A stretch of DNA of 64,000 bases from Polytrichum commune (Eukaryota > Streptophyta > Polytrichopsida > Polytrichales > Polytrichaceae): NCBI GenBank assembly GCA_950295325.1, contig OX485809.1, positions 1,986,001 through 2,050,000 of the forward strand, read 5' to 3'. Below the pieces are notes generated by a model. That model ran no database searches and was not told the DNA's origin. It saw only the letters and a list, made by a program, of their open reading frames with translations. Numbering within the stretch: the first letter of the stretch is position 1; each line of letters begins with the position of its first letter. The translations under genes were made by a program, and so were the position numbers. This document shows, piece by piece, positions 1 through 64,000 of the stretch.

Positions 1-764
1 ATTATGTATATCCGATCAAAACTTAGATAAATGATCTAGTAGAAGATGATATAACTTGGCAAGATAGTCTATCTTGTGATAGTTTATCTTGTGTTCATTA
101 TCACGTATATCTTATATCATATAGAATATATAGAATATTTATGAATTGCTATTAAATTTATATATTTAAAAAATTAAAAAATTCATTAATTTACGATGAT
201 ATTGTATTATTTAAAGGTTTTATCATAGGTTTGTAGAATGATAAACATGGTACGTTTAAGTCCGTATAATTAATATCATGTGATGTCATCTCATAATATA
301 ATCTATATGCATGGTGCATAGATATAGGATTTAGGGTTCAAAGTAATGAAGATTATGTTTCTACATTTTATTTGCCAATCGTTTTCTCATTCATCCAATA
401 TGTCTACTATATAAACTTCATTTTAGGGTTTTCAAGGTCTTTTTCTCTTGTACCACTTCCAAGGTATGTTTTCTCTCTATATTTTGCTTTTGTATTGGGA
501 TATGATGTCATTGGATAAGGTATATTTAAAAAAACATTTTAGTTACATGGATATTGGATTTAAAGACTATTTGTATTTTGTTAAAGATAAATTCCATATC
601 AGCTAAATATTTAATATATATTCAGTATATATATAAATATTTTATCTATTTGAAGTTATTTTTGTTAAGTTTGAATATGGATAACTCGTTAGATAAGGTA
701 TTGTAATTTATAGAATTTGTGGATAACATGTGTGATTTGTTCAGGATAGGTTATCGTCGAAATT
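1..764. other. AT-rich 5' flank of the MULE-like element
   Basis: No gene is visible here. The stretch is strongly AT-rich and carries the words GGATAAGGTAT (about 510) and AGATAAGGTATTG (about 692). The same words recur in the introns of the transposase that follows, in the satellite at 3784-4800 and in the accessory gene's intron, so this is probably the left part of the same transposon. Its left terminus may lie outside the window. A TTCAG acceptor-like site just before 744 suggests an upstream non-coding exon. Confidence 0.5.
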
Positions 765-3462
765 ATGGCTAACTCTATGGTCATTCAATCGCCCTATGTG
801 GGAACTTTCAACCACCGCCATTTGCAATGGGCAAAATCTACTCGCGGAATGCGACCTTGTAGGATAGCTCGCATTCCACTAGATCGTTTAGATGATTTCC
901 AAAAAGGAGAAAAAATTGGTGAAGGAGGCATGTAAATTTCTTGGACAATTCATAAGATTCGGAAGGTTTCTCCACACCTCCAAAAGCAAGTTCGATCCAC
1001 AACAAGTCTTGGACACATCACGTAAGATACCTAACTTGGATATGTATTTGGATAAGATATAGTCAGATATATGTATTTTCTTATAATATTGTTATATATT
1101 AACATTTATATATGTTATTTCAGATATCATTGTTCATATGGCCCTGAAGACCATAGAAACAGGAAGGAGTTGAGACAAAATCATAAACGGGGATTTCTTG
1201 CACGATATTCTATCAAGATTTTGGCTAAACCCGCGGATACGTTAGAGATAGCCTATTTCCATGAATAACATACCCGAATTGATGGAACACCGGCGCATGA
1301 CGTGTACGATCCGGATTCGTCGGCACGCCCTTCCGCTCTTGCTACACAATGGTCGGATTCATTGAAGACGTATATTGACAATAGGTTGAAGAGTGGCCTT
1401 AATGCTCGTCAAAATTATGATGAGCATCATCAAGTGTTTGCGGATCGATCACAGATGGGTTATTCAATGCGTAAAGATGATACTCTTCTTTTGAAGAACA
1501 TCCGAAACATTGAGTGTACATTTTTACGAGGTAAGTGGAAACGACACACTAACGAGGCAAAAAACGTTGATTCGTGGATTACGGAAAATAAAGATGATGT
1601 GTTTATTTTGCAAGAGTCAAATTGTATAGATGGCAAAAATACGGCATTTGTGTTGGGTTTGCAATCACCCGAACAATTCAATGCCATAATAGAGTATGGT
1701 GACAAATCCGCTATATCTATGAATGCTACATTTGGAACTAACGCTTTTCTATTATTTTCTCTATACACTTATGGTGTTCGATGCTTGCCGCAATGGGTTT
1801 CCCGGTGCGTGAATTATAACAAATAAGCAAGATTCCGAGAGTCTCATTGTCTTTCTAAAGCCTTTGGCGGATAAATTACGAGCGGCGCATTCGGAATGGC
1901 GTCCTAATGCTTTCATTGTTGATAATGATGAAGCCGAACACAACGCTTTGAGGTGGGTGTATCATATTCTTTTACTTGCATATCAATATACTCTATCCCA
2001 ATTTACTAATTTATTTTTTTACAACTTACATAATCAAAATCAAAATCAATTTTATTTTTGTCTAAAAATATAATCTATCCGAATATGTTATCCAAGCATT
2101 TTTTTTACATATAGTCTATCCTCATTTTGTTATCCTTATATATTTATTCATTTATTTTGCGTGTAGACGCGTATTTGGAGAGGACGTTCCCATATATTTG
2201 TATCAATGGCATGTTTTGGAGTGTTGGAAAGCAAATGCTTTGGCGAAAATGAGATTGGACGAGGAATCTCGGGATTGGATTTATTACAGCTTGCAGAACG
2301 TGATGTATATGGACATTATATGGAAAGAAACCGAAAATGATTTCATTGAGGGAGCAAAGGCAAATGGAAATTTTGTATTTGATACGGCAAAAGACTATCG
2401 GAGAACCCGGATTGTATCAACGATAGATGTTCGCGGAACACAACAAATAGCTTACGAATTGGAAAGAGACCTTCACAATATTGATGTATTTCAAGCATAT
2501 TTTGAGAGATGGTATGGAAATTATGGTAAGTTTCAACACTTTACAATGACATTACTTTGCATGATAAGGTATAGTGAATTGATAAGTTCATGGATATGAA
2601 TATTGGATAAGGTATCATCTAGATTCGAACTATAAGTATGTGCGTTGCAGCTATGTGGGTAAAATGAGTAAGAAGAATTCTTCATACCGGACAAGACACA
2701 AATTCATCCATAGAATCTTATCATGGAGCAATGAAGAGATGGTTAGGTTTCACAAGCAAGGGATTGCGGGGTCGACGGCTTGATTGGCTCATCACAATGT
2801 TGACAACTACGATTCATAATCATTATACGCACCGTTTGGTAATGAAGAAAGCGGGATTGATCAAGAATGAAATCATGACACTCAAGGTTCGAGAAAGTGT
2901 CAATTTGTCTTACTCCATCGACGAGGAATGGATTCTTGAACCGACCAATGAACGAGCACATTGGATGTGTCGAAGCGCAACGTATCCGGAGAATTGGTAT
3001 TCACTTACATACCCTCATCGTGATTATGCGTGTTGTGATTGTGAGTATGCAATTCGAGGAAATTTTTGGTAACATCAAGCCGCAATAATTTTGAAAACTA
3101 CGGATGTAGATCAAGATGCCATAGTTGAATATTGTGGCACATATTACGGGACGACTCGTGGAGTGTTATTTGAGATGTTTAAGGCGGAGAGAGGATTTTG
3201 TGACGAAGATGGATTGGATGAAGATATCATCATTGATTCGACCGATACGAATCACGATGCAACACCTAATCTAGATGATTTGGAGATTGGGGTGGAATTT
3301 TTACAAGAGAATGACGTGATTGAAGTGGATAAAGATGTTCTTCATACAAGAGTTATAAAAGAGCATGCAAAGGATTATAAGAAATTTCAAAGATTGATTG
3401 AAGGGCACGGACTACGAATGGCCGAGCATGCTACTTCCGAATTTCGTGTATTGTTGAATTGA
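765..3462 (+). pseudogene. Degenerate Mutator-like (MULE) transposase with SWIM finger
   Basis: These are pieces of a MULE-type DDE transposase, the enzyme that cuts and moves Mutator-like DNA transposons. Coding blocks lie at about 765-1020, 1126-1820, 1830-1953, 2167-2525 and 2655-3462, separated by AT-rich stretches that look like introns. Family marks are a first-Asp block ending NATFGTN (1722-1742), a second block VDNDEAEHNAL, the glutamate block NSSIESYHGAMKRW (about 2700-2745) and a C-terminal SWIM-like CxC...H motif (about 3030-3080). It is broken. The first catalytic Asp codon is AAT (Asn) at 1722-1724. Stops or frameshifts occur near 939, 1266, 1766-1820 and 3070, and in the SWIM motif a Trp and a stop replace the expected Cys-Lys. 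Motif order and C-terminal SWIM fit MULE/FAR1-related transposases. I infer a non-autonomous relic. Confidence 0.8.
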
Positions 3463-3783
3463 ATGTCGGAGTTGTGTTTCGCGGATTTCCAAGGCACTCT
3501 TCATCCGGACATTCAATTCGCGAATATGGATAGGGGTATAGGTAATTCAATTCGTAGAAAACAAGGGTGGTATGAAAGAATGCTTTCAAAAAGACCTCGT
3601 TCATGTTTCCCTTAGTAAAAATAATTAGTTTTATATTTATGATATTTATGATTATTATTAAAATCGTATATATGATTTTGATGTTTATTACAATTGGTGA
3701 AGATATTTAGCATCATATATAATAAAAATTTATATTGATTTTATTTTGTTAGTTTTCATGTGTTCATCACTGTTTTTGTATAC
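3463..3783. other. AT-rich spacer downstream of the transposase
   Basis: The first 150 bases still resemble decayed coding sequence (GAATTGTCGGAGTTG onward, with FPRHSS-like residues in one frame). After about 3610 the DNA is simple AT-rich sequence. It holds no open gene and ends where the 180-bp satellite begins. Confidence 0.4.
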
Positions 3784-4800
3784 AATACCTTATCCCTACT
3801 CTTATCTTTAAAATGTTAAATGATGATAATTATGGATAGACTATCTTAGCTTTGTATATTAGAGATAATATGTAAAATAAAAGAATAAGGTATACTCAGG
3901 AAATGAATAGTTTCTGACTATATCCTATTTTACAAACTTCAACTATATGATATTTGTGATCGATAGCTTATCCATATACTTATGTTCAAAAAAATAAAAT
4001 TATCATAAATATGGATAAAGTATCGTTATGTGACATTTTAAAGATAATATGAAAATCAATGATAATGTATATTAAAAAATTGAATAGTTACTGACTATAC
4101 CCTATCTCACAAACTTCAACTATATGATATTTGTGATCGATACCTTATCCATATACTTATCTTCAAAAGTGCAAAATGATCATAATTATGGATAAGGTAT
4201 CGTTATGTTACATTTTAAAGAAAATATGAAAAACAATGATAGGGTATACTCAAAAATTGAATGGTTACTGACTATAATCTATCTTAGAAACCTCAACCAT
4301 ATGATATTTATAACATAACGATACCTTATCCATATATTTATCTTCAAAAATGCAAAATGATCATAATTATGGATAAGGTATCATTATGGTATATTTTAAA
4401 GATAATATGAAAAACAATGATAGGGTATACTCAGAAATTGAATAGTTACTAACTATACCCTATCTTAAAAACCTCAACCATATGATATTTATAACATAAC
4501 GATACCTCATCCATATACTTATCTTCAAAAATGCAAAATGATCATAATTATGGATAAGGTATCGTTATGTTACATTTTAAAGATAATATGAAAAATAAGG
4601 ATAGGGTATACTCAGAAATTGAATAGTTGCTGACTATACCCTATCTTAGAAACCTCAACCATACGATATTTGTTATCGATACCTTATCTATATGTTTATC
4701 TTCAAAAATGCAAAATGATAATAATGATGGATAAGGTATTGTTATGTTATATTTTATAAATTATATGGAAAATAATGAAATAATGAATATTTATTTATAT
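3784..4800. repeat. Satellite of ~180-bp units, about six copies
   Basis: Successive copies of GATACCTTATCC start near 3784, 3960, 4138, 4319, 4500 and 4677, a period of about 176-181 bp. Each unit holds ATACCTTATCCATA followed about 50 bp later by TATGGATAAGGTAT, so each unit can fold on itself. The remainder reads as TATACCCTATCTTAGAAACCTCAAC-like sequence. The array lies exactly between the two convergent coding regions of the transposon-like segment and shares the GATAAGGTAT word with their introns. It is probably an internal array of the element, possibly of transposase-binding sites; the binding role is inference. Confidence 0.85.
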
Positions 4801-4839
4801 TTTAAAACAATACATATATGCTCGAAAATACCACAAATC

Positions 4840-6071
4840 CTAGTTTCCTAATGTTACTTCTTCTTCGTCGTCCACCGAGTTAGCTTCGTCATTATTTTCG
4901 GGACTTGGCACTCTCCAGTCAATGTCATCGTCGCTTGCTCGGGATTGCGTTTCACGAGCCAATGCCGCGGCCCGTTCCGCTTTGAGGGCGCGAATGCTCG
5001 AAGAAGATGCGCGAAGACGGGCTCTTAATTTAACATAATGCTCAAGAAATGCCTCAAAATTTCCAAAAGACTCTATTTTTTTATGGACATGCGCTACGGT
5101 GTTATATTCCGTGAGCTCACAAAAAACGAGTTCACGAATGTTTGCGGATTTCTTCAATTCATATCGTTCCCGGGAAAACGCGGGTACAAGCGTAGACATG
5201 TATTGCAATCTTGAAATCGCAATCCGGTTTCGAATGGATTTGCTTCGCTTGAAGGCCGTCCATGTGGCAGGATAAAAAATAACATCACCCCACGTGGAAA
5301 AGTCAAAATTAGTTTTGACTGACCGGATGAAAAACATGGCGAGGGGAGGCAATTCATCTGGCAAGGGGAGGCAATTCATCTGGCAAGGGATTCTCAACTG
5401 CATCTCGAAGCATATTCTCCCATTGTCGTTCGGCGGCGATGGCCCATTTAGATTTGGCCTTCGCGTCTTGCCGTTTTAGCCGGGCAACCGGATTGGATAA
5501 AGCCCGAAGATTTTTAGTTTTTATTTACTTACATAATTTGTTTTGCATTCCACCCAAAGACAATGAAACTTCTTCCGAGCACCTTCTCCTCGAATAGCCC
5601 AATGTACATCCAATTGAGCAACCCCGTCGACGGGGAGCTCACTTTCCCGTAGATGCGGTAAACCTTTGGAAACTTCATCTTCATCCATTGGGATGTAATT
5701 TGTTTGTTCTTCATCATCCATTGCATTATTCTCTCCTATTGCCTCAAGAAGAGATGATGGTGAAGCCAATCCCAAATGGAGGGGTGGAACATCTATAAAA
5801 ATCAAATAAGATAAGGTATTGTTAGTTTTCAATTTCATGGATTATTACAAACAATTAACGGGATAGGGTATTGTAAAAGAAAAAATGCAAAAAAAACCAT
5901 CTTTGCTACTCAAAGAGTAGCAAAGATGGTTAAAACATTACCTTGTGAATGGGTTGCAATGGTACATTCCGAAAGGACAATGTCCACCATTGTTGGGGGA
6001 AGCGGTTCAATGTTAAGAGCCATCCGAATTTCTGTGGTTAGTGGAGTGACAATAGTTGGAATATTTGCCAT
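4840..6071 (-). pseudogene. Three-exon accessory gene of the MULE-like segment, frame broken by a 22-bp duplication
   Basis: I do not recognise the family. Exon 1 is 6071-5942 (starts MANIPTIVTPLTTEIRM), exon 2 is 5792-5533 (ends ECKTNY) and exon 3 is 5458-4840 (ends EEEVTLGN). The introns are GT..AG (149 and 74 bp) and phases agree. The expected product would be about 328 residues: an acidic middle (DDEEQTNYIPMDEDE), a Lys/Arg-rich region with RSKSIRNR, then a helical tail (HYVKLRARLRASSSSIRALKAERAAALARE) likely to form a coiled coil. In exon 3 a perfect 22-bp direct duplication (5343-5364 and 5365-5386) shifts the frame and brings in a TGA; it is the only lesion I see. The gene converges on the transposase. 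It may be a transposon accessory factor or a captured host gene. Confidence 0.6.
5895..5931. repeat. Perfect 16-bp stem hairpin
   Basis: AACCATCTTTGCTACT (5895-5910) is followed by the 5-base loop CAAAG and then the exact reverse complement (5916-5931). It lies inside the first intron of the broken accessory gene. A fold this tight could stall polymerases or form a cruciform. No function can be read from it. Confidence 0.9.
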
Positions 6072-6559
<488 letters not shown>

Positions 6560-7325
6560 GATTAGTTACAGATGAACCTAATCTGTAAGATTACAGATTA
6601 GTTACAGATTAGTTACAGATGAACTTAATCTGTTATTGTAACTTATCTGTTACAGATTAGTCACTTAATCAGATTACAGATTTAGATTACTAGATTTAGA
6701 TTATAATCTAGTGATTAGATTTAGATTACAGATTACAGATTTAAATTACAGATTAGATTTAGATTACTAATCTGTAAATTAGATAACTTAGATATAGATT
6801 AGTAATCTGTAATCTGTAATTTATTGTAAATTAGATAACTATCTGTATCTAGAGTTATCTAAATCTGTATCTAGATTATAGATTATAGATTACTAATTAC
6901 AGATCTACAAATTACAAATTACAAATTACAAATTACTCTAGATATCTGTATCTAGAGTTATCTAATTTAGATATTTGTATCTAGAGTAATCTAATTTAGA
7001 TATCTGTATCTAGAGTAATCTAATTTACTAATCTGTATCTAGAGTTATCTAAATCTAGTGATTAGATTTAGATTACAGATTAAATCTAAATCTAGTAAAT
7101 CTAAATTTGTAATCTGATTAAGTGACTAATCTGTAACAGATAAGTTATCTAAATCTGTAAATCTATAATCTGTAAATCTGTAATCAGTAATCTAGTAATC
7201 AGTAATCTAGTAATCTGTAATCTGTAAATTACTAATCTGTAATCTAGTAATCTAAATCTAATCACTAGATTTGTAATCTACATATCATTAGAGATCACTA
7301 GATTTGTAATGAACCAGAGATTAGT
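6560..7325. repeat. Self-complementary array of GATTACA / TAATCTGTA words
   Basis: About 760 bp are built almost only from permutations of AGATTACAGATTAGTTAC and their reverse complement (TAATCTGTAATCTAGTAATC). The first half is richer in the GATTACAGATT orientation and the second half in the AATCTGTAATC orientation, so the whole stretch can fold into a long imperfect hairpin with its centre near 6950. The flanks GAACCAGATTAGTTACAGATGA (about 6557) and GAACCAGAGATTAGTTACAG (about 7311) are nearly the same in direct orientation. No coding potential is visible. Confidence 0.85.
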
Positions 7326-9866
7326 TACAGATGAGCAGGTTGAATTTAAGAATCAAGTATGTCCAAAGTATGAGTGACCTTTCTGCACGTGTAACACATA
7401 GCAGTTTGAATTCACAGAAGCAGAAGAAGATAGATAGCATGAGAAATTACTACATCCATTTAGCACTACAACAATTCCAAGGCCAAGGTCTAATACATTG
7501 AGCACCTAGTCTAAGCAAATGCACAACATTATATATACAAGAAGAAAAATGATTTCATAGATCAAAATACAAGTTGCAAGATTTCAAAAAAGTTGAGTGC
7601 TAACATTTTCTCCCTACATTTCAACTTTGCAATTGCTAAGCTATGATACACTAAACAATACATTGCCAAAATGAATGCAAGGTGAGTGATGTGAGAGAGA
7701 ATGTGAGAGTATGACAAAAGTGAGTGTAAGAGAAATAATGAAGAGGGGGGAGAAGAACCCGGGAGGTTGGGGGAAGAGCCGCTCACACAAAGATGAGAGG
7801 ATGAGGGGGCAAGGAGCCTTAAATGGCTTAATAAAATGACATGCTAATCTCTTAAAAATAACCGCATGAGTAGTGATGGGTTGGCAACCCATGATGCACC
7901 CACTTGCTCTTAAAAATATCCCAACTAATAGTGATGGGTTGCCAACCCATGATTCATCCACTTGCTCTACACTAGGCACTCAATTTTAGGTGCACAAAAC
8001 TTTGTATTTATCAACACCCTTTTAATTAGGTTGAGATGGTTTTAGACACAAAAGTTTAGTCACCTTGAGACAAGGTACCGACACCATAAGGGTCATTCTA
8101 AAGTGGTTGATCTCATTCAATAAGATGAATGAGCTTCTACGGATGATTTTACTTGAGTGCCACGAATCCCCGGCCGGGAAGGTCTCTGCTCTACTGAGCA
8201 TGTGTCAGAATACCACTTCTGACATGGGTACATACTGCATGAATACAGGTTTCAATTGTTTGTTGATGAGGGTAGGCTTATATTTCTTTAATAATGTTAT
8301 GTTTGTTCTATTCTTTAATAATATTCACTTTTCTTTTTGATGACATTGCTAATTGAGAATCAACCTCGTCAAGTCTCTTGGAGGTTTATTATTAAGTAAT
8401 GCATTTCATCATGGGAAAAAGCTCACTTTAATTTACTTTATCTTATAACATTGTTGTTGTCAAAGTGCCAAGAGTCGGACCCTTTGATCGTGTGGGCTTC
8501 ACAGGTATGTGTTTGGTTTGTGGAGGGTAGGGGGGATTAGGGTCTGGTTTATCTTTAACTTGTGTTTGTTGGGTTAAGTCAATGAATGCATTAAGCTTAG
8601 TGTTGAGCTTTTGGGTTTTAATGAATATGATTGGGTCGTTGGGATTGGTGAGATGTTTGATTGTAGACTCATGCAGTGATTACAATGTATAGCTGTAACT
8701 TACTTTGCAACCTATTTGTTGTAAGTGGCGATCAAGTGGATCTGACTTTTCATATTTCTTTATGTGGTCCTTTCTGGGAACATTTCATGGCAATCTTGAA
8801 GCAAATTGATTTATCTGGAACAATAAATCAAGGACATGTGAGAATGATTTATTTGAGGAAAGGCCACTGTGGCATAAAGAGTGTATGGACAGATTTAGAG
8901 GTGGTAATGACATATGCATCTGTATTCAATACATATGATTTGCTCAATTTGACAAATAAGAATGTCCAAATTGTGACATGTTGACATACATAAAGACTTG
9001 GTAATGGTAAATCTCATCACATAGAATTATATACTTACTTTGTCTTGAAAGCGAATGTGAAGAGAGTATTATCTTCAGATGCCTCAAGTATGAAAGGATG
9101 ACGAAAATGTGTGACATTGCAACCTCCTGCAAAACAAACAATAAATAGCATTACAAAAACTTGCAATGAAGAAGATACACGGGAGTCTCCTGTGGGTTAG
9201 TAATAGCACAAAGCAAGCACAGAATAAGTTATACATAAACAGCATGATGATTGTTGGTAAAATATAAACATACCTATTCAACATTGCTTTGTCTCACATA
9301 AAAGAAAGTACCTTTTGAACCTTAGAAAATGCAGGCTCCTTACATGTGGGCTGTTGTAGTTGAAGTTCCTGCTCTGAGTGACAAGAGTTGAGAGTTAAAT
9401 TTTGAAACAGGGTTTATTCCCCACTTCAAAATTGGTTATAATTTAACAAGGGAATAAAACTGGTGAAGCCAATTTGTGCCTGAGCCTAGCAGAAAAAAAT
9501 TCTATATTTCCAATCTACACACCTTGAATCCACTTACAAAAACCCAGAAATTGGGGGATTGATTCTACAAAAAGCACCCTCGAAAGAAGAGGTGGCATGC
9601 ATACAAATAAGTGCACACAAGGGACAGAAAGTGAGGCGATCCAAGCAAATTAATGTAGGTGAAACCCGAGCTTCTGATGAGAAGGTCAAGTGTAAAAATA
9701 TTGCATAACTTCAGTAATGGCCTCATGACAGATGTTTACATACCAGAAAACTGAAATAAACTCAAGAAGAGCACGAAGTAAATGAGCTCAATTCCTTGCA
9801 TGGCTTTAATTAACTGGATTCCAACATTTATAACGGTGCTTGGTCCTTTGTTTGTTTGTTTGTTTG
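7326..9866. other. Intergenic region with no supported gene
   Basis: Both strands hold only short readings without recognisable protein features. The direct repeat TGATGGGTTG(G/C)CAACCCATGAT occurs near 7875 and 7931. A short exon-like stretch at 8460-8511, ending in GTATGT, has no partner exons. The part after about 9290 is probably 3' UTR or downstream flank of the SET gene on the minus strand. Confidence 0.4.
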
Positions 9867-11114
9867 TCAGTCATCCTGAAGGTCATGCTCCTCCAAATCA
9901 CGATGGAATTCCTCATCTGATCTAACACGCCCGCAGAAATTGCATTCCATGGAGCCCTCCAAACCTTGCTCATCCAGTTTCCCAGGAGGGTAGGGAGCCA
10001 TGGTGCCTCCACATTCATCGGCGGGGCAGAGGTACTTCACAAAGAACATCGCATGTCCAAAATCATCATCATCATCACCATCATCATCTTCTTCAGATTT
10101 CTTCAAATCTTTCTTCCCAGCGCGAGCCTTGACATCATCATCTTCATCTCCTTCAACATTATCATCATCTTCTTCAGCTTCTTCGTCATCTTCGTCATCC
10201 TTCCATTGAGCCTCCACTTGGCACCTCAGGCACTTGCAATTGAATCCATACTCTTCCTCTAATTTCTTCTGTCGGTCGCCGTACGGCCAGTCCACAGGAA
10301 AATAACTCAAACATATCTCTGTGCCCTCCTCTACAGCATGCAAGGCGCGAATGTACACATCGGTATTGTTCTCTCCACATCGGTCTATGTACTCAAACCT
10401 GCATGCATTGGGTAAACAATCATGGTTGAACATGGCAGCCCTTGCATAGATGGCATACCCTCGAACTCGCCTCTCTCCATCACTGAAAGGCGACATGAGT
10501 CCGAATGTGTTGCAAGCATCCCTGGCCAGTAAACCTTTCGTCATGTCCATCGACATCATCGAAACCCTTGCAGAAACATCATCATTCGATGATTCGAACG
10601 CTCCTACCAAAAACTCATGCAACTCCTTCAACTCCTGCACCGATGAGCTTTTCGACTCCTGCCCCTCCAACTCCAGCAGCTTCTCAAACGCTTTAGGATC
10701 CTCGAAGGATAAGTTGTATGCAGCTATGAGGAAGCGAACTAGGGTTTTTCTCTCCACCGAAAACCCTAAACCCTTCTTCTCCAACGATGCGATCGCTTTG
10801 CACACACTGGATGTGTGGGATGTGCTCTGTGCAGCATCCATGCAATCGGGGCTACAGAATGTCGCAGAGCTACATGATGGGCAGAGAGTAGTAGTTGGGT
10901 GCGACATCAAAACACGCATACAATGTGCACAAAAGGTTTTGTTCTCAGCCGCTTCAGCTTCTTGGTACACCAAGAGCGGCGATTCTCGAAGAAGGATTTC
11001 TCCTCCTTGTAAATCTCGCGCTGCCACCATCCCTCGGCCCCGTCCCTCGATCTTCTCTTGCCGCAATGCGGTCTCCCAGTTGTTGCTGTCCGCAGGTTTC
11101 TCCGGTGAAGACAT
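9867..11114 (-). CDS. MYND-SET protein lysine methyltransferase (SMYD/ASHR2-like)
   Basis: This is a single-exon protein of 415 residues. SET enzymes transfer methyl groups from S-adenosylmethionine to lysines of histones or other proteins. A SET start (GRGRGMVAARDLQGGEILLRE, residues 24-45) is split by a MYND-type zinc finger (Cys62, Cys65, Cys78, Cys81, Cys87, Cys91, His100, Cys105). The SET catalytic core follows with NHDCLPN (230-236) and the GTEICLSYF motif (264-272), then post-SET cysteines CKCLRC (293-298). An acidic run from about 306 to 351 is rich in Asp/Glu and coded by GAT/GAA triplets. The C-terminus has a further Cys pair region (CPADEC...CNFCG). Plant ASHR2-type proteins are intronless and about this size. 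Its start lies next to a duplicated 5' region (11090-12070), and the GT8 gene runs the other way from the same spacer. Confidence 0.9.
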   Translation of the reverse strand: MSSPEKPADSNNWETALRQEKIEGRGRGMVAARDLQGGEILLRESPLLVYQEAEAAENKTFCAHCMRVLMSHPTTTLCPSCSSATFCSPDCMDAAQSTSHTSSVCKAIASLEKKGLGFSVERKTLVRFLIAAYNLSFEDPKAFEKLLELEGQESKSSSVQELKELHEFLVGAFESSNDDVSARVSMMSMDMTKGLLARDACNTFGLMSPFSDGERRVRGYAIYARAAMFNHDCLPNACRFEYIDRCGENNTDVYIRALHAVEEGTEICLSYFPVDWPYGDRQKKLEEEYGFNCKCLRCQVEAQWKDDEDDEEAEEDDDNVEGDEDDDVKARAGKKDLKKSEEDDDGDDDDDFGHAMFFVKYLCPADECGGTMAPYPPGKLDEQGLEGSMECNFCGRVRSDEEFHRDLEEHDLQDD

Positions 11115-12070
11115 GATGTCTGCCGAAATCCTGCGCGACCGAAGTGCAAATCAAAATGCGCAAAATCCAATAAAATCGAATTGGAATTCAATCTCGACTC
11201 TCCCCGCACGTTAATCGAAAGATGTGCACACAAGTGGCCCTTTACAATTAACTCCTTGGAATTCTTCGCCCATTACCTCTTCCAATGCCACTGTCAAGCC
11301 CTAAACTCCATAAACCCTTCATAAACCCTAGAGGGCCTGTAGAGGGCTGTATAGCGTTACCGATGGATGTGCTCAAAATGGACCAGGGGTAAGCCCATCT
11401 CCTATCTTAATTGGTCTAAAGACAGTTGTAATGGCTTAAGAACCCACTTGTGTGTGTGCACGTCGATTTGTTCGAATCACCAGGTTTCTCAGGCGAAGAC
11501 TTGCCTGCCGAAATCCTTTGCATATGTAGTGCAAACCCAAAATGCTTCAAACCAATCAAAAAGATAAAATTGCATCCAATCTCCACTTTCCTAGTCCCTC
11601 TAGATCCACATATCTCTAATACCCAACTCCCTAAATTCCGGGTCCTGCCACTGTCACGCCTAAAAGCCATTATCCCTTCGTAACCCCTTTCCAGTGTCCA
11701 GGGAGATTCTGGGCATAATCGGTAAAGAGCCTAGTGATTCCAAGTCCAACCGGTTGCAAGTTGACATCTTCCAGTTTTCTTTATTGATTCGAGGTATATT
11801 CTACAGATTCCTCTAAAATGATCGGTATTTTTCCTGAAGTCTTGAACTTCAGCCAGTTATTTCTCAAACTCAACCAGTTCATCTGTAACTAGCAGTTGAT
11901 TCTCCCCGTTCATTGGCCCTTCCAAAACCCTAAATCCTGTAGAGGGTTATATAGCGTTGCTGATGGTTGTGCCTGCAGAGAATTCACCAAAGTGCCCATC
12001 TCTGATCTTAATTAGGTATATGACAGATGGAAGAGCTCATGAATCCACTTGTGTGCACAAGCTCGGGAAA
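11090..12070. repeat. Tandem duplication of the SET gene's 5' end and upstream region
   Basis: The segment covering the first codons and 5' UTR/promoter of the SET gene (about 11090-11478) is repeated at about 11480-12070. Matching landmarks include CAGGTTTCTC...GAAGAC (11094 and 11484), TGCCGAAATCCT (11121 and 11508), the CTGTAGAGGG..TATAGCGTT block (11337 and 11938) and the block reading CCCATCTC...ATCTTAATT (11394 and 11994). The second copy is longer because an hAT-type MITE (11692-11915) sits inside it. The downstream copy carries a decayed version of the SSPEKPADSN start, so it is a non-functional copy. Confidence 0.85.
11692..11915 (+). mobile_element. hAT-type MITE, copy A
   Basis: A 224-bp element begins CAGTGTCCAGGGAGATT and ends TTCTCCCCGTTCATTG, imperfect inverted ends. 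Flanking 8-mers CCCCTTTC and GCCCTTCC agree at 6 of 8 positions, fitting an aged 8-bp target duplication. It has interrupted the second copy of the duplicated SET upstream region; the first copy (around 11310-11330) shows the unoccupied sequence. Confidence 0.8.
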
Positions 12071-12778: not shown

Positions 12779-15700
12779 ATGCCAGATTACAATCCCCATC
12801 CCACCTCGCAGGCCGGCATGAGGAGGCCTCTGAGGTATCAGGATGGGGAAACGTCGGATAGGCCGGGGGACTTGCGTGCGGATCTGGAGCCAGCTCCTAA
12901 GCCATGGCCAGGGATGCCATACTTAGCGGTGTTGCTGGTTTTCGGGTTCCTGGCTCTTCAGCTTTACCCTGCAACACATTGGCGGCACCCGAATGACAAA
13001 ACTCGGACATGGATCAAGCACTTGAAACCTGGAGAGAAGCCAGAGATCATTCAGGCCACAGGGAGGGATGCATTCTACAGTACCTTGGATGAGGTTCGAG
13101 GGCAGCAAGCTGAGGATTTAGCAGCCCAAGAGGGTGTGGTTCAGGTCTGGGAATTCCTCGCAACCTGTTTCTGTTTTCAAGACAAAAACCTAAATGGCAA
13201 ATTTCTGTTGTAGATTGCAGTAAAGCCAACAAGAGGCATTGTCCAAATTTGTGCTGGATAGGTTTATTAGTCTGTTGAAGCCACGTATATTGTGTAGACT
13301 CCGTAAGCAAGAGAAGCTCGTTTTGTCTGCTGCCTTGATGTTGTTTTGTTTTTTGAGGGCGGTTCCGTGTGGGTAATGCTTTTCATGTTCCCTATGTACA
13401 ACAACCTTCAATGAATTCCGCAGCATTTTCAAGGGGTGCACAAATCATGAGTTGAATTTCATGTGCCGAAGGATGTCGATGTAGATGTAATAGTTCTCCG
13501 AGATTGAGGTAGCTATTGAATCCAAGGTTGTTGCAACGTCTGGGTGGAGTTATCTTGAAGGTGGTCCGTGTGGGTAATGCTTTCGATGCTTCTCTATAGT
13601 CAACAAACTTCAATAAATCCTGAAGCATTGCACGAGGTGCACAAATTAAGGGCTGATTTTCATGTGCAGAAGGATGTCGATGTAGATGTAATAGTTGCCA
13701 GTATTTTGTTCTGAGTTTGAGGCACCCATTGAATTCAAGGTTGTTGCAACGTCTGGGTGGAGTTACCTATACAATATGATTCTTTCCATATTGAGTTCAA
13801 AAACACTCTTGCCATTCAAAACAGCACTTGAGTGAGGTGTCAACGTGCCCTCTTGGATTGGAAAGGAATTATGTATAGTTCATGGGAATTAGAAACCTTA
13901 CTTCCCTCATTGCATTATTGCAGGGTGAGGACCATGATGAAGAAACGATAGCGTTCCTGAAAAAGGCTGGCGAGCAACCAGTGCACATATTTATTTGTAC
14001 AGATGATACCGACTTCCGTCCTATTGCTGTACTTGTGAACTCCACCTTGTCTAATGCATTGTGAGAACTTCTCCCACTGTTTCTATTCTTTGCCATGATG
14101 TACATATTTCCATTCTTGAAATGTTGGGATGATTTTGTTAGATAAGTAGTAAGTGTGTCAAAGTATTGAATTACATCCAAACTGAATTCTTGGCACCTCC
14201 TGTCTGTGAACAGGCATCCGGAACGCTTGCACTTTCATCTGGTATTGCCATCAAGCCAACACAAAAAAGCAAGTCATTTGTCTGCAATCTTCCAAAATGC
14301 AAAAATTGATATAGCCAGGTATGGTTTCTGCACTGCAGTTAGTATGGCACTTCAAAAGCCCTCCCATTGGAGGGATGCGTTTCCTATTTCTGGTCACCTC
14401 TGGCCTTGTACAGGTTAAGAGCTGATCAAATCAATTTTTTTTTTGTATGATCAGTGAATCTATTGACATGAAAGAGCTGGAGCAACACATTTATTATCGA
14501 AAGAGCAGCAAGGCAAGGCCAGAACTGAAGAGTCCATACAACTTTGTGCCTTTCTTGTTACCCCGATACTTTAAAGATGTTGGCAGAATCATCTACCTTG
14601 ATGCTGACATTGTGGTCAAGGTATGACATTGTTCTTGTATCCTCATATATTGTACCTATGAAATAAAACACTTTCAGGTATAAATTTCCCTCCAACACAT
14701 TGTACTATTTTTCAGCAGCTGTGACAAGTCATCATGTTGTTGCTAATAGTATTGAGTACCTTTAAAGGAGCCAAACAGAAATGCTGGTGCTGAAACCTTT
14801 GCATCTGTTTTTATTACTGCAATATCTTGGCAATTCCTATTCACTTATTGAGCAATGAATACCATGCTGTATCACTAGAGGGGTCAGACATTTATCCACT
14901 CTTTTAGGTGTGTATCGTGAAGTCAACTGTATGTGGCTTTCAGTTATATTATGAATACTTTGGGTGGTTGGCAAAACTGCACGTTTGATCTGGTATATTT
15001 CTGGTGTGATTCTCTTCCAAGGGATTATTAAGTGGATTGTATATTGGTGCAGGGAAATATCGAGGAACTCATGCAAGTTAACCTTGAAGGTAAACCTGCT
15101 GCTGCTGTAGAGGATTGTTCTCAAAAACTTGGGACATACTTCGACTTTCACCAGCTTGAGAAAATTCAGGCAAGAAAAGATAACCCGGTGTGGGTTCCAA
15201 AGGACCCCATGAGTCGAGAGGCTTGTGTGTTTAACAGGGGTGTGCTTGTGATTGACACAAAGGAGTGGATCAAACAACAAGTGACAGAATCAATTTTCTG
15301 GTGGATGGATGAATTTCGCAATGCTAGTTCCGTGCTTTACAAGTATGTACCCATTCCTGAGGATTTTCCCTTGCAATTTTTATCTTCCTCTACTGACCCT
15401 CAAGCAATGCACATGTATGTACAATAATCTGATGTAATCGTTAAAACCTTTCTTAAACCCAATGGCCTTGGGTATTACTTGGTTCATTTAAGCCTACTCT
15501 TTTCAGGCCCAAGCCCTGAAAAGTTAGGGCTTCTAGATTCAGAAACCCCTCAAGTGAGAGATTTGTGATTTTCTTAAAGTGCCGGTCCATGGGCACCAAC
15601 AAATACTTAAAGTTGTTAATGTAGGTAGATTGTGTGATACTGTCTTGGTGTTAGTAACCACAATGTGCTCATATTAATTTTGAACAGTTTATGTAACAGT

Positions 15701-28733: not shown

Positions 28734-28772
<39 letters not shown>

Positions 28773-33000: not shown

Positions 33001-33139
33001 ACACTTTAAGCATTTTAAGATGTGGAGGGGTTTTGTATCAACATAGTTACATAAGTATATCAATGATCGAATGATAACACACTAATGCTTTTTTTTACCA
33101 TTGTTAAAGTATACACATATATCTTAGGAATTCTCTAAG
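30057..33139. other. Repeat-rich intergenic DNA, no gene supported
   Basis: 30340-30780 contains pieces of a dispersed repeat with GGGCCACTTCATACAC and TAGTGTGAAGTG-like ends. A poly(C) run is at 31339-31350, and a TG microsatellite is at 31917-31931. Scattered readings on both strands lack any protein feature; those across the simple repeats are artefacts. Confidence 0.4.
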
Positions 33140-44857: not shown

Positions 44858-45195
44858 ACACCTTGCTCTTTGAATTTACAAACCCCTACAAACTTGTTCT
44901 TGACTCATCCCAATTTTATGTTTGTGGAATTTATTTTAAGATTGAGTTGTCTTAAAATATAATATCTTGAACTCCATATAGAAATCAACATTTTCACCCT
45001 CTCTTTGATAGGTGGTACATGCTAGATATTATACATGAGAAACCTTATTACAGCCCGTAGTAGGACAACATGTGCACTATATCAACCATACCGCTCACCA
45101 TTTTGCAAAGGTCATTTGCTATGATGTATATTTGACATGTTCATGTCCAATGAAGATTACCATGTTAACAAAATTTGAGAAGGTGATCCTACATA

Positions 45196-45715: not shown

Positions 45716-45774
45716 TAAACAACCTAACACATCCACATTGGAACTCATGATATATACCTCAAGTTAGTAAAGAA

Positions 45775-50210: not shown

Positions 50211-53200
50211 ATGGAGTACCTGGAGAATATAGGAGAGAAAGTAGGTCTGAGGAATGTGGACCTGGATAACATCAAGAAGCAGGCCTCTTTCTTTCTCAGG
50301 GACAAGATCAAGTCCGCACGCCTATTTCTCACAGATGCCACGAACTCCCAATTGTAAGTCTTAATGGTGCTTAAATATGTATATGCTTAAATATATATGT
50401 GTGTGTGTGTGTGTGTATGTGGATGAACTGGAATAACATTGCTAAGCTCCATCTGCCACTTACCCCTTGCCCTAGGCAGTCAAATAATTATTCGAGCAAG
50501 GGCCGGGAACGAATAAACGCATTGTGACTCTCAGAAAATGACAGCTTCAGTCTTAGTGCCGTGGCATCTCCTTTGTTTAGAAAGGGTGAGGGAGCATGAG
50601 CTTTAGTAATGTTATGGAGAGCGGCTCATTGTTTTATTAGGGTCACACCAAACTATCATAAGCTTTGGATGTTCGTGCACATGTTGATGCAGAATGACAG
50701 AAGAGGCTACAAATGATGATGATTGGGGGCCCTCCACAAAAACTATGGCTGCCATTGCTGATGCATGCTTTAGGACAGATGAGTATCCTCGAATCATGCA
50801 GGTTCTACATGTGAGGTCAGTTTAGCATTTCAAGTGCACTTTCCATACTCAGACATACTCATGAATGAATTCTATTCATCTGTAAGACTTGTTTTGTGCG
50901 CATGTCCTTTTGGAAAAGTTGGAATAATCTACATCCGACCAGGGCTACCTAAATTTCTGATAAGAGCTACTGGGTTGGCTTATTTGTGGCTGTACAGATT
51001 GGGATTGATAGGAAAGAAGCACTGGAAGCAGTTTCTGAAAACACTCACCATTGTAGAGTTTCTGCTGTTTCATGGCCCTGAACAGACTCTCATGGAGTTC
51101 GGTTCCGACAGAGATGTTATTGAGGATCTCACTCGCTTCAATTATGTTGATGAACGGGGGTACGATGCTTGAAAGTTAATTTGTCTTGTTTCCAGACTTA
51201 TATATAGTTGTGTCTACTTACACTAATAATGTTGTCGTAGCAGGCTTGTGATAAAAATATTTCTCATTTGGATTGTACTTCATCATGTGTTTAAAGAGTG
51301 GTCAATTCATTTGGTGTTTGTGCCCATTGAGGTCTCAATGAGTTTGTTGGGAACCTTCAGATGTCCAACTTAACCAGACTTGTACGCGAAAAGACCTCCA
51401 AGCTTCATGTAGCAGTTTCATACCCCTGACTTAAGACCATGTTTTGTAGGGTTGATAGGGGAATAGTTGTGAGGAAAAAAGCGAAGCAAGTTCTGAAGCT
51501 GCTGACAGAGGATGCTTACCTGAAGGACGAACGAGACAAAGCTAAAAAACTTACAAAGACCATTCTTGGACAAGGTAGTTCTCAATCAAGCAGTGGTCAA
51601 ACTAGTTCCTCACGTTATGGGGGATTTGGTAATACAGATATGTTGTCTTCAGGGAGGAAAGGCCGTGAATTTGATACAGAGTCTGAAGAGTTTCACATAG
51701 ACAAGAAGTTCACAGCTTTTGAAGAAAGGATTCTGTCAGAGAAGCGAGGGAATAGACCAGAGAAAAAAATGAATGCACATGCGGACAGCACAAATAGTGA
51801 TGGTTGGAGAGCATTTGAGGATGATGCTACACCAGTTCCATCTACAGCAAACGTCGATGAGACTAGTTGGGCGAATTTTTCTGTAAGGCTTCTTGATCTT
51901 GTCCTGGCTGGAAGGGGTGGAACTTTGAGGATTCTTGTTTGGGATTTATTCACTCACATCTCATCCTCACCACCTCAGTCTAATTCTTGTTTTCTTTTTT
52001 TGTATGATCTCCTGATCTCAAATATCTGTTGATATACTTGCTGGTGTGATACCTAGGCATTCTTCTCCAGTTCTTGTGACATTTCGCACTTTCCAATTCT
52101 GAGTGCATGGACCATGATATAAATGAGAGCTGTTTATTTCAATTTGGATTGAAAATCTATGGATGGGGCTTTCTTTTTTGCAGAATTCGGGCTCAGATTC
52201 TATCCCCAAGCTCAATGACTCAGCTTCTGGAAAGGACATTGAGATTGAATACGATACGCCATTGCAGCCTTCTCGGGTTTGGGTCTTTCCTTTCACATCT
52301 CATCCTCACTACCTCTTGGATCTTAAATATATGTTCTAACATTCTATACTTGCTGGTGTGATCATTAGCATTCTTCTCCAGGTGTTGCAACATTTGCCCC
52401 TTTCCAATTTGGAGTGCATGGAACCATAATAAATGAGAAACGTATTCTATAACTTGATTTGATAATCTCATCAATGGATGGGGGCTTTCTTTTTTGCAGA
52501 TTTCGAGCTCAGGTCTAATTCCCAAGCTCAATGGCTCATCTTCTGGAAAGGGTATTGGGGTTAAGACACCAAGTAAAACTAAGAATCAGGGGAGTACCTT
52601 TGTGCCAGTGACCTCTGTGGGCAACAACTTCAAGCTACCTCCTCCCCCACCACCACCGGGTGGCTCGAAGACCGTCAGTAATATTAAGCCATCAAAGATT
52701 CCACAATCAATGCAACCAGTTCCTGATTTGCTTGACATGTTTGATAGTACACCAATTGGCTCCTCTAATGTCCTCGAATCAGATCAAGGAGCTATGGATC
52801 AATTTCTGGATATTGAAAGCAGTACTACAACCGGCTCAACCCCTGTGGTTTGGTCTGTGGATGACCACTCATCACCTCAAAAGGTTCAAGCTAGCAACCC
52901 AGATATTTTTGCAGCTTTTCGTCGTGAATCGCCTCTAAGTTATGCATCAGCTTCTAACGATTCTGCATCGAAGAATTTAATGCCAGATTTTTTCAATTCA
53001 GGAATTGCAACTGCCAGTTTTGGTGTAGTGGGAGAGCAGATACCTCACAACTCTCCTGATATTTCCACTAATTTTGTGGCCTTTGAAGATCAGGTTCCTT
53101 CAAGCAAGCAAACAGATATTCCCACAGGATTATCAGAATTAGTCCCAGATTTCTTTGATGGGAGTGCTCCAGACTTTGCAGCCTTTAGTACTCCTGATGT

Positions 53201-55303: not shown

Positions 55304-58300
55304 ATGGCGATGGCGATGTCGCAGATCATCTGCACAAGGCCTGCCAGCATTCTGCGCTCCACCGCAGCTCCATATCCCGAAACTAACTCGACGACAAAAA
55401 TTGAAACCGAATCAATAGCCAAAGCAGGAGGGCCCCTTGAGGATGCATCCATCTTACCAGTCGTGCGAGTCTGCTCACCTCCCTTCGCAGCGAGTGGGAA
55501 GAATTGGACTCGAGTTAGGGTTCGAGGAGGTAAAGCGGAGTTTGAGAGAGCGTGGGAGAATGTAGCAGCTGCGTGCGTAGTTGGCGTGAGCCTGGTGTTT
55601 GTGGGAAATGTGGCCACCGCTGATGCGGTGGATATGGCGGCAGGGAGATTTGTGACTTTCCCGTGGGAGCAGGCGAAGGCGCTGACACAAGAGGAGCCGC
55701 AGAGAGGTACATGCGCGACGTGCATTGGCGTCGTGGATGACACCCTCGGCGCTTGCAGTGCTACCACGAATTGCGTCTCGTCCTTCGATGACAGGTCTTC
55801 ATGCCTGTAGATTGTTCACTTTCCTAACGTCTTCTTTTAAAAAATGCTTGTTTCCATAAGGCTTCGATCTGGTTTTTGTGTCGGCGGTGTGGGCTGCTCT
55901 TACTTTCACCGAGCATAGTAGGGTTCTGGACATGCCCTGAACCCTGGAAATAAACTTTAGAATTGCTAGGTTTCGATCTAATTCACAATGTACAGAGACA
56001 AGGGTAAACATCCCTTATTCGGTTACTTTTTTTATTGGGACACCTACATTTGAGTGGTATGTGGTTTGGTGTGGCTCCAAGAATGGATACCAAAAACACA
56101 TGTGTTTGAGAGATTGTACTGAGTGCTCAAAATGGGATTCCTATTCTAGGCTCCATTTGTAGATAATCAACATAAATGAGGGGAGCCTATTTGATCATTC
56201 AATGAGTAGGAGAAACTTCACTTTGAAAGGATAAGATATTTGTATGAGCTCCACAAATATGAGAAAAGTGGCTAACCATTTCATACTAATCGCATATTTC
56301 ATATCATAGGATAAGTGGGCTAGTCGAATAAAGTAACCATTTAAGACCCATCTACCTTAGTTTGGGCAGTGCCCGTTGCAATGTGCATACAAATTAACAA
56401 CCCCTCCTTTTGGAGCTTTGGAACGATGACTGTGTCAACGCCCATGCGCCCTCCTCCTTGTTCCAAATTTCCAAAATGTATAGTAGGCAGTTTGGGCCTG
56501 TGCCTTGAGGCTGGTCCATTGCATCCGTGCATATCGATTAATGTTACGGGCCATTCCTGCACCATCCGCACAGAATGCCTCCATTGACGGCCAACCGTTT
56601 TGAAATTTTAGAACGGTGACTGCGTCGATGTATAGTCGCCCTCTCAGTTTCAAAGTGTGTAGTAAATAGAAGCCAGAGTATGGATGCCAAAAACCAGATG
56701 GAAGTCTGTGGAAGCTAGTATTAGAGATTAGAAACTTGATCCTATTAACTTAGACTTCCATCTAGTATTTGTTTTGGTGATATGGGCTACTTTTACTTCC
56801 ACTGAGCATAATGTGGTGTTGGACATGGTCTGAACCCTGGACAGAATCTTCAGTATTGCTTGTTTTCGATGTCATTCACCATGTACAAGATAGTAGCCGT
56901 ATTATGGACGCCAAACCCAGATAGAAGTCTATGTTTCTTCTCTCTACTGCTCGCTTCCATGGACTTCTATCTGGTTTTTGTGTCGGTGATATGGTTTTCT
57001 CTTACTTTCACCGAGCATAATTTGGTTCTGGACATGGCCTGAACCTATGACAGAAACTTTTGAAAAATGCACGGTTTCGATCTCGTTCACAATGTACAGA
57101 CATAGTAGCCATAGTATGGACGCCATATCCAGATGGAAGTCTATGTTACTAGAAACCGGTTCCAGACAGAAGAGGTTGGGAGCGTGGAGTATAGGTCTCA
57201 AATGCCCTGTTGTAAGACAAGCATGGCAAATAAAATGAGTAAGCACAGGAATCGTGTCAAAAGAACACTTCTAATTTCATGCTAGTCTGAAGTTCTGGGT
57301 TGGATTGGCTGACGTTGTCCATGTGTTATTCTGGCAGGCCAAAGTTCTTTGTTGCACCTTGGGAGTTTCCTGGTAAACTGGAGACTGCTGTTAGTAATCT
57401 AAAAGGAGAGTTGTTGCGTTCAGGAGCAACAATCAAAGACCAAGGTGAGAGGTATGTAGAACGCCTCCTTTAAGTATGTTGGAGGGCGTTCAAGTAATAG
57501 TGCATTCTTCGCATCAGATCGAATTCTAAGGGTAACCTGTATACTGATTTCTATCTAGAGAGGAATTGACCTAGTTTCTGTTCCTACTAAAGAAGTTGAT
57601 TCCTTCCTGTGATTCAAAGTGTAAGGGCTCAAGATCGGTGTTGAGGTGCAGGTACATATATGCTGTTTATAAAGGAGAAGATGGTATTTATGATGATGTG
57701 GAATTTCTGTTTAGTGAGCCTGCGCTTGATGCTACTGTAAATGTAAGGGCTGCCTCACGTGCAGTTGATTTTAAAGACAGTGGTAGAAATCGCAAGAGAC
57801 TGGAGGCCCTCCGAATGTCACTTGACTGGGAACAGGTTTGTATTGTCCATTGAATGCTTTTTATCTACATTGATATGTGCAATTAGGTTGCCTCACAGTA
57901 GTATATCCACATTGCACAGTATCTTGAATATTCACCACCACAATACAACATACATAAACAATGTTTTTTTCCGGGGTTTCTTTATGGATGAATACACAAG
58001 GTTGTAATTTTTTGTAATCTGATTTTGACCCAAAATAATTTGCATGGGTAAGGAGGCCACCTATTCACGAAGGCAACCTAATTGCACATGTCAGTGTAGA
58101 ATTTTGAGCATCAGATCAAACTTGTACGATTGCTCACTTCAATATTCTGGAGGAATATCACGGCAATAGGTACTCATGGAGACATGTGTATTTACTGATT
58201 GCAGGTGCCAATCTTGAGGAACAGGCAGCGGCGGCTATTTTTCATTGAGTCCCCATGGGACACCTTCGGCCCAGAGCCGCCCCCCACCTTCAATTACAAT

Positions 58301-61322: not shown

Positions 61323-61838
61323 CCTTAGAAACAATGAAACATGGAACCTTATTTTAATCACCCACAAAAAAAGAAATTACAAAAAATTAGTCCCAACCTA
61401 ATCGAAATTATAACACCCTATAGATTCATGATGGGATCCTGATCGGGAATAGGTGCCTCTATTCCAATTGGTATATTTGATGTATCTTCTTGGTAATAAA
61501 TGGTGAAAATGCATGTTGGTACCCAAGGTTAAGGTCGATGCCAAGGGGTCCACAAATTATCCAAGTGGGTCGGCTCATACACAAAGGGGGGTTGGGATAT
61601 GTCATGCAGGCCCATCTGCAGTTAAAATGAAGGGCTAAGTGGGTAGACCCGATTGACAATAGGCACCACTAGACTCAGCTCATGATTAGAGTAGGTTGGT
61701 TTAAGGCCTTGCATGCAATGTGTATGTTTGACAAATCACATTTGATGTTCAACTTCAAATCCAAGGTGTCATGTGACGTTTTCAAAAAAAATAAAAAAAT
61801 TGTCAATTGATGTGTACATTTGATATGTACCAATATGT

Positions 61839-62320
61839 CAACTACTTGCACGATTCTCTGCTTATGTTTTCTTGTCACCCCTGATCGAATAAACCAGTCA
61901 TTTATTCACTGATCCGGACCAGCAGCCGCTCTCAGATTTCTCCATATATCTTCGTCAGTTGGCTCGGCAGTGTCTAATGCTCTTTCCACTTCTTCTAAGA
62001 ACTTTCTCTTCTTCTTGCTAGACTCCCACAATCTAGTAAGCTTCTCTACTAGCTAACAATGCAGCATGTGTACCACACGCAATCTTCAGACAAGTGAACT
62101 CCAGTCTACCTTCACAGAAATTTATCCCCTTGAAAGGAAACATGTTACGTATGAGCTCCATCTTCGTAAGACCTGCAAAACGATAAGGGGGCGTGGATGG
62201 ACATGTCAACTACTTGCACGATTCTCTGCCAACTTTCTTATCACCCCTGCCAAGTTACAAGCCCATCACTTTCTTCAAATGATCCGGCTCAGCTGCTGCT
62301 GTCAGATTTCTTCACTTTGT
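61839..62320. repeat. ~368-bp-spaced direct duplication
   Basis: CAACTACTTGCACGATTCTCTGC starts at 61839 and 62207. Both copies go on with TT(A/C)TTGTCACCCCTG-like, TCA(T/C)TTTATTC/TCTTC, TGATCCGG(A/C)(C/T)CAGC and CTCTCAGATTTCT/TGTCAGATTTCT. Spacing of 368 bp shows a tandem duplication whose second copy is shortened or ends near 62320. Confidence 0.75.
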
Positions 62321-64000
62321 GTGCTCACATGGTACTTGTAGGTCAAAGGGCTGCAAATTTGGTTTTCTTGAATGTTGAACACAACATTAGAGATGTGATG
62401 TTATGATCCTTTCACATCCATGTGCCGGCTCCGTCCTCGTTACGAAAACAATAAATGTTTGTCGAAGTGGCAATTAAAGCCTTCGTGCTGCTTGTACTTC
62501 GTGCTCAACGAAGCAACCGGTGCACCACATGAGAAATCAAAACATGGCACATGTATGTCTCATGTCCATGTCTCAATGATTTGTTTGATTTGGTTGATGG
62601 CCAATATGATCAACTAGCAGTTTACATGTAACATATGTGTAGAAATTGATATGATTCTTGGTAGAAGGAGTGCAGCCTAGTGAACCGTGAAAGAGCCATA
62701 TTTTCTGTAGTGCGGGATATAGGGTAGAAAAATTGGTAGCCCTTGGACAGGCAATGGAATGCACATTCCTATCACTTCAATAGAAGTGTGTAGTTGGGTG
62801 GACACAACTAGAGCTACAAAATTTGGACATTCTTGGCAGGAGCAGCGCTAGTGCATTATCAAATTGGCAGAATGTCCGTTAGTGCACGACATAGGGTAAT
62901 TATGAGGCAGTCTGCCAAGTACATCTTTCCACATAGTCACCAGGTTTCATGCAAAGATACAAGACTCATACAAGAACTGTTCTACCTATTGTTGCAACAC
63001 TTGCAAGTGATATCTACCTATTGTTGCTAGATTGTCCTCAATATCATGGACTCAATATCATTAACCAAATAAAATTGTATTTCAACGCTTGGTGGGGGTT
63101 CATGTAAATTGTCCCATACCTATTTCAAAACCCCCAGATCGTCAAAGGGTTAAGCTGTGTGACATCATTACAGATGACAAGGGTCGACAATTTTCTTGTG
63201 TTGCCATCAAGTTATATGTGTCTGTGTCAGATAGAAGGACGAGGCCAGCTCCGATTTTGAACACATGAATTATCTAAATCAAAGCCACAGTACTCCTCCT
63301 AACCATATCTTCAACACAGATGATTAATAGACAAAAAGGCTCATGAGACATGTTATTATCTTTTGAGTTCAGATAGTGAGGTGCAGGTCTGGCCTACCCA
63401 CAATGCCTTGATCATATCATAGCCTGCAAATCTCTGTTCTAATCTGCAATTTATTCCTGCTCCTTCCTATTCCCCCAAACAATATGGGCCGGGTTTTCAA
63501 AAGAATTGCTTCGATGCTCAATTTCAACACTTTGTTGGGGGGTTCATGTAAATCCTTCATGTATCTATATAACCATCATCAGTCTAGACCATCAGTCTTC
63601 AATCTAGATGGTCTAGATGATCTAAATTTTGTTTTGGATGTAGATTTCATGACCTTACATGTTCAATAGACTTACTTGCACACTACTTGCACTATCTTTG
63701 AAAATATGTAGACTTTTCTTGAAAACATTTTTTGTCAACATAAATTGCTTGGCTTTGTAGATCAATGTGCTTTTCAAATGTTTATGATTATTTCCTTTAT
63801 TAAATTCAAAGTTAGTATATAGTTTTGAACTACTTTCACTTAAACCTATATAGGATAATGAAATTGTGCTTAACAGTGCTTGCACCCTCCAGTGACATCA
63901 AAATTCATGTAAATTGACAAATTCTAATATAAATATAATGGTTTAAAGTGGTTTAATAAGAGAATTTTATATTATGGGGGGTCCTACTAGGCCAAACCTT
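62321..64000. other. Terminal intergenic region, no gene supported
   Basis: The short motif TTGG(T)GGGGGTTCATGTAAAT occurs at about 63090 and 63534 and could mark another diverged duplication. No readings show protein features. The right window edge cuts through AT-rich DNA. Confidence 0.4.

Follow-up and report, generated by a model that had tools for sequence, protein, structure and literature searches.

Plant genomes are known to grow in part by short tandem duplications, and a 64,000-nucleotide stretch of the Polytrichum commune genome (contig OX485809.1, positions 1,986,001 to 2,050,000; hereafter the window) holds a number of them. An initial annotation listed 11 tandem duplications here and considered them unusually many, which raises the question of whether this stretch differs from the rest of its genome and how its arrays arose. 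Here, we find no significant departure of the window from the rest of its genome, and we find its arrays to be a mixed set, made up of transposon arrays and plain local duplications. The arrays are mostly ordinary.

Tandem repeats in the window

Self-BLAST of the window finds local direct repeats at all 11 listed places, which upholds the listing, although 61839-62320 is tandem only if its second copy is truncated. Identities of the aligned parts range from 65.9% in the weakest pair (28.1-29.0 kb) to 86.2% (3.8-4.8 kb), and copies differ at 14-34% of sites across the listed arrays. Shuffled sequence lacks such repeats: the real window yields 32 local direct high-scoring segment pairs compared with none in six Markov-shuffled windows, and an ungapped-diagonal detector returns no locus in five further shuffles. 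Tandem Repeats Finder at its default score reports a period above 100 for just four of the 11 listed arrays (3775-4778, 25409-26010, 35906-36581 and 45189-45704). Two loci of similar kind had not been listed, 34769-35184 (period 358, a dispersed repeat family) and 6705-7082 (a simple AATCTGTA block). The repeats are real, old, adjacent copies of short DNA pieces. The 11 listed arrays (A1 to A11) and one added here (A12) are:

A1, 3775..4789: 5.6 copies of a 177-182 bp unit, lying between the two convergent genes of a MULE-like transposon
A2, 11080..12055: two copies of ~375 bp, at the 5' end of a SET/MYND gene
A3, 13349..13768: two head-to-tail copies of ~205 bp, between glycosyltransferase 8 frames (putative intron)
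A4, 25226..26060, minus strand: five copies of ~158-190 bp, at the end of bZIP exon 1
A5, 28064..29060: about four weakly matching copies at a spacing of ~200-290 bp, upstream of the bZIP gene; the weakest of the set
A6, 33139..33853: 2.5 copies of ~280-295 bp, units holding an 82-bp imperfect palindrome
A7, 35784..36811: nearly four copies of 221-280 bp, upstream of a polyA-polymerase/CCA gene
A8, 45189..45737: two copies at period 287 of a fold-back unit, with a 183-bp imperfect palindrome at 45455-45637
A9, 51939..52562, plus strand: two copies of 339 and 285 bp, across an ENTH intron-exon boundary
A10, 55832..57150: three copies of ~205 bp with inverted-repeat arms, between DUF1499 frames (putative intron)
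A11, 61835..62320: a 112-bp direct repeat, 368 bp apart
A12, 34768..35229, plus strand: dispersed repeat family 2, in 1.2 copies head to tail, with a period of 358

For A2 and A5, MAFFT alignment of the units gives 57% and 39-63% identity, values depressed by an inserted miniature inverted-repeat transposable element (MITE) and by poor unit limits, and self-BLAST-type pair identities were used for these two arrays instead. A single common satellite was considered and rejected: the array units do not match each other, except that part of the A6 unit recurs at 35250-35358 (self-BLAST). The annotation had also called the duplications independent, which does not hold for 3784-4800, part of a transposon, or for 33.1-33.9 kb with its recurring part.

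Inverted repeats in the units of A1, A6, A8 and A10 outscore the best of 40 shuffles (12 segments tested). None above the 95% level of 40 shuffles was found in A2, A3, A4, A5, A7, A9 or A11, and these seven arrays look like plain duplications. At this depth of search, A2, A3, A4, A7 and A9 are adjacent copies of local DNA and A1 is not; for A5 and A11 this status is doubtful.

Density against the rest of the genome

As control we took 22 stretches, each of 10 kb, from this genome, with 7, 4, 3, 3, 2, 2 and 1 from contigs C1 to C7, and applied one detector to window and control alike (ungapped-diagonal matches, offsets 81-1000, score at least 26, low-complexity hits removed). The window has 13 loci in 64 kb (0.203/kb) and the control 37 in 220 kb (0.168/kb), a ratio of 1.21 (p=0.61), where the control stretches lie at round coordinates, are unmatched in gene content, include one chromosome end and miss more repeats at their cut ends than the unbroken window does, which lowers the control slightly. 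At least one locus occurs in 18 of the 22 stretches and none in the other 4, and a 23rd stretch contributes three more. Array spans, including DNA inserted between copies, cover 13.8% of the window and 8.8% of the 220-kb control. Hence, the claim of unusually many duplications is not borne out; a matching count per kb in a comparison sequence, which the initial annotation had itself named as speaking against its claim, is what the control shows. An eye-catching density in a single window loses its significance once its own genome serves as the control.

The same comparison bears on unit size. Sorted by smallest period, the 13 window loci fall at 81-150 (1), 151-400 (11) and >400 (1; 11336-12055 with period 600, or ~375 bp without the inserted 225-bp MITE), compared with 14, 19 and 4 of the 37 control loci. 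Hence, the shared unit size that the initial annotation described is weaker genome-wide. With equal scoring, the window has 9 inverted-repeat loci, compared with 28 in 230 kb.

Of the 37 control arrays, 23 have no counterpart in the rest of the 284 kb searched, the matches of 6 are confined to their own surroundings and those of 8 lie at other places, which indicates that at this depth the arrays are mostly not satellites. Copy identity spreads over 66-86% in the window and over 67-97% in 35 of the 37 control arrays (two in L009, a control stretch at 20.0 Mb of contig C2, were left out), a spread that a long-running process would produce. The idea of a genome-wide tendency therefore survives in the 18 of 22 stretches with loci, but not as the work of a single cause, given one transposon-internal array and three with inverted-repeat units.

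Gene parts in the duplications

The window is nuclear DNA of a plant and carries intron-containing genes. In the list below, one or two frames of each gene were matched in Pfam and the remaining exons were assigned by open frame:

9867-11114, minus strand: SET/MYND protein gene (SET PF00856, E=4.1e-11; MYND match below its cut-off)
~12.76-16.39 kb: family 8 glycosyltransferase gene (Glyco_transf_8 PF01501 in later exons)
~22.2-27.0 kb, minus strand: bZIP factor gene (bZIP_1 PF00170 in the exon after exon 1)
From 37.8 kb: gene for a polyA-polymerase/CCA-type enzyme (PolyA_pol PF01743)
50.2-53.26 kb: ENTH protein gene (ENTH PF01417 in an earlier exon than A9; later exons by open frame)
55.3-58.3 kb: DUF1499 protein gene (DUF1499 PF07386)

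Four duplications had been said to involve functional gene parts. We count three that contain exon sequence (A2, A4 and A9) and two more that lie in putative introns (A3 and A10). The first copy of A2 holds the start codon of the SET/MYND gene with its first codons and DNA upstream, and the second copy is interrupted by a 225-bp MITE (~11691-11915), which we take to be of hAT type. The A4 copies hold what read as the last bases of bZIP exon 1, a putative 5' splice site and the start of the intron, with exon 1 predicted to end at 26027 on the minus strand, a reading supported by the bZIP match in the next exon. The first copy of A10 is split by ~650 bp that includes repeat family 2.

A9 yields a second predicted exon of 93 nt in the ENTH gene (52184-52276), with an AG acceptor at 52182-52183, a GT donor at 52277-52278 and frame 0 with both neighbours. 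This makes A9 a candidate intron gain in its sequence features, given that the boundary is spanned, GT and AG are present and the frame is kept. The intron parts of the two copies are 83% identical and the exon parts 77%, and the exon copy thus shows no sign of being better conserved. Skipping this copy would also keep the frame, and use of the exon is therefore unproven.

The element around A1

The array A1 is directly observed to be part of a repeated element, with these components:

1..8131, plus strand: MULE-like element (or larger duplicated segment), collinear with L009 at ~92-93%
~766-3475, plus strand: transposase-like frames
~4840-6072, minus strand: second gene
6588-7285: AATCTGTA/TACAGATT block, 91% match in L009

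The match to L009 takes in the array and the AATCTGTA block, along with parts of both genes. Window positions 2473-3177 are missing from the L009 copy, and the match reaches the first base of the window and the end of L009, so that its outer ends were not found. The array takes up ~838 bp in L009 (3444-4281) compared with 1015 bp in A1, which indicates a difference in copy number. The AATCTGTA and TACAGATT words of the block at 6588-7285 form large palindromes, and the transposase reading frame breaks near 1825.

The motif GGATAAGGTAT, at up to one mismatch, has 20 sites in window positions 1-6600, 13 of them within A1, and 15 sites in L009. There is one site in the rest of the window, and five are found in the other 21 control stretches combined. 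None of the 20 sites falls in the coding blocks of the element, which make up 3273 of the 6600 bp and were hand-drawn after the sites had been seen. The motif is dense and tandem in the non-coding parts of the element and rare outside.

In Pfam, one frame of the element matches the MULE transposase family PF10551 below its cut-off (E=0.039, 14.8 bits versus 27.6), and nine other frames (six in the window, three in L009) give no MULE match. The second open reading frame of the L009 copy has sub-threshold matches to Integrase_1 (E=0.015), a Zap1 C2H2 finger (E=0.043) and zf-C2H2 (E=0.38). At 1720-1734 the window copy reads MNATF, where MULE transposases usually read MDATF. From its sequence, the window copy of the element looks decayed.

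Dispersed families and other features

Two dispersed families occur in the window:

29598-29822, 11691-11915, 20074-20268, 24180-24389, 44193-44420 and 45752-45859: 225-bp hAT-type MITE family
19014, 34853, 40971 (minus strand), 42946, 56027 and 58767: dispersed repeat family 2, ~200-375 bp each

The MITE, which we assign to the hAT type by its ends and target-site length, has ends CARTG...CAYTG in most copies, whereas the 24.2-kb copy begins CACTG. An apparent 8-bp target duplication, GGTAGTAT, flanks the 29.6-kb copy at 29590-29597 and 29823-29830. This family is matched in 4 of the 22 control stretches. Family 2 is matched in 10 of 22, clear ends were not found for it, and it is tandem at 34768-35229 and at 5463-6384 of control stretch L017. 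Two inverted structures lie near the end of the window: a 115-bp fold-back at 61208-61322, with 88% identity between arms, one arm recurring at 18956-19016 and a copy in control stretch L002; and an inverted repeat at 60301-61121 with arms of ~230 bp that are 77% identical over an 820-bp span.

The assembly comprises seven chromosome-size contigs of 42.1-77.9 Mb each (~406 Mb combined), followed by contigs of 147 and 67 kb. Searches of the window found no tRNA and no Rfam family reaching its gathering score. The SET protein has no plasmid match by tblastn, and one exon of the glycosyltransferase gene gave no match when compared with solved structures.

Origin of the arrays

We consider it probable that the arrays reflect the gradual accumulation of short tandem duplications, with the window as ordinary background of its genome and some arrays as parts of mobile elements. 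Short local stretches (~80-400 bp) would occasionally be copied beside the original, with the repair of breaks or paired nicks as the most likely occasion. The copies would then diverge and persist, with old copies presumably being removed slowly. At A2 and A10, the duplication would have preceded the insertion. Atop this background, A1 would be the internal motif array of the MULE-like transposon, and A6, A8 and A10 would be tandem inverted-repeat units.

Break repair by patch copying, as the initial annotation had suggested, is a plausible source, given that a similar source has been proposed for short tandem duplications in rice. In rice, tandem duplications are the commonest source of insertions, are enriched at 50-200 bp and are ascribed to patch repair of adjacent nicks; the tandem share of events is high up to ~125 bp and falls from 70% to 5% by 200 bp (PMC7971508). 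In mouse and human cells, primase fill-in and end joining produce short duplications when the ends of a break carry complementary 3' overhangs (PMC8355091). The borders of the arrays do not provide proof. Four pairs were laid out (A3, A8 and one each in control stretches L021 and L022), and only the A3 border is readable: copy 2 directly follows copy 1, and the two share at most ~2 bp there, judged by eye. The L021 border has a TTGTGG-type simple repeat.

Several points weigh against gradual accumulation as the explanation. The borders have diverged too far to allow a meaningful test of microhomology. One mechanism does not account for the whole set, given that five of the 12 window arrays (A1, A6, A8, A10 and A12) are linked to mobile-like units. 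For periods of 151-400, a cut picked after the data were seen, the window is 2.0-fold denser than the control (11 in 64 kb versus 19 in 220 kb; p=0.078). The 284 kb searched represent ~0.07% of the genome, and units of moderate copy number would look unique. Window units are mostly 150-390 bp and old, compared with a rice share of 5% by 200 bp (PMC7971508).

It is unlikely that most arrays are instead products of mobile elements (MITEs, fold-back elements and larger transposons), through tandem insertion or as internal repeats. This reading draws on A1, which lies in an element with a second copy elsewhere, on the inverted repeats of A6, A8 and A10, and on A12 as a tandem of the widely matched family 2, but it sits poorly with the seven arrays that have no marked inverted repeat and with the gene parts within A2, A4 and A9. 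Furthermore, 9 of the 11 listed arrays (all but A1 and A5, and A2 by its first copy only) are unmatched in the 220-kb control, a depth (~0.05% of the genome) at which families of under a few thousand copies could escape. On the inverted-repeat test and the control matches, at this depth, we reject the reading that all arrays are transposon-borne. A false expansion of single-copy DNA during assembly, for which no supporting evidence was found and which the initial annotation had raised against itself, has a negligible chance of being true: the 66-86% identity and the insertions inside copies (the hAT-type MITE in one A2 copy and family 2 in one A10 copy) exclude it, and the contigs are of chromosome size, with C1 starting with CCCTAAA telomere repeats.

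The remaining alternatives concern rate. A local duplication hot spot would agree with the point estimates, 1.21-fold overall and 2.0-fold for periods of 151-400, but neither excess is significant and the window was singled out for this very feature, which inflates the estimate; we regard a hot spot as very improbable. That the genome as a whole undergoes short tandem duplication at an unusually high rate for a plant is rather doubtful. Such a rate would account for the roughly one locus per 5-6 kb seen in both window and control and for the share of sequence that the spans cover, yet slow removal of old DNA would give equal density without a high rate, and with copies of this age the density may owe as much to slow loss as to fast gain. 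One published plant survey covers units of 1-50 bp and offers no yardstick (PMC3887541). We are similarly hesitant about the wider proposal that the lineage tandemly duplicates 150-400 bp pieces well above other plants, with about a tenth of its genome being old tandem copies, start codons, splice sites and exons being copied time and again, and new exons such as that of the ENTH gene arising in this way. Should the density across the whole genome indeed exceed that of other plants, this repair outcome could be studied in the lineage as a natural system. Old duplications with readable gene parts show what can survive: splice sites that may act as decoys, a copy of a gene start and one additional exon that stays in frame.

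Comparison with known systems

In common with the patch-repair duplications of rice (PMC7971508), the window has local head-to-tail copies that are common genome-wide and lie in introns, exons and intergenic DNA. The window fits a process of this type in kind and less well in size.

A9 resembles known intron gain by tandem duplication in that the duplicated unit spans an intron-exon boundary and brings the 3' splice site along; a new intron between the exon copies would result. It differs in its new donor, GTTTGG, which seems to come from the intronic start of the unit and not from exon sequence. The 225-bp family resembles hAT-type MITEs in its length, its CARTG...CAYTG ends and its 8-bp target duplication.

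The element around A1 invites comparison with the VANDAL transposons of Arabidopsis and their VANC target arrays (PMC5735166, PMC10398659). The motif of A1 is different and both copies of its element look decayed, and the likeness is one of sequence: a short motif is dense in the non-coding parts of the element and forms a tandem array whose length differs between two copies. By this analogy, the A1 element and its second gene may represent a VANC-like anti-silencing system.

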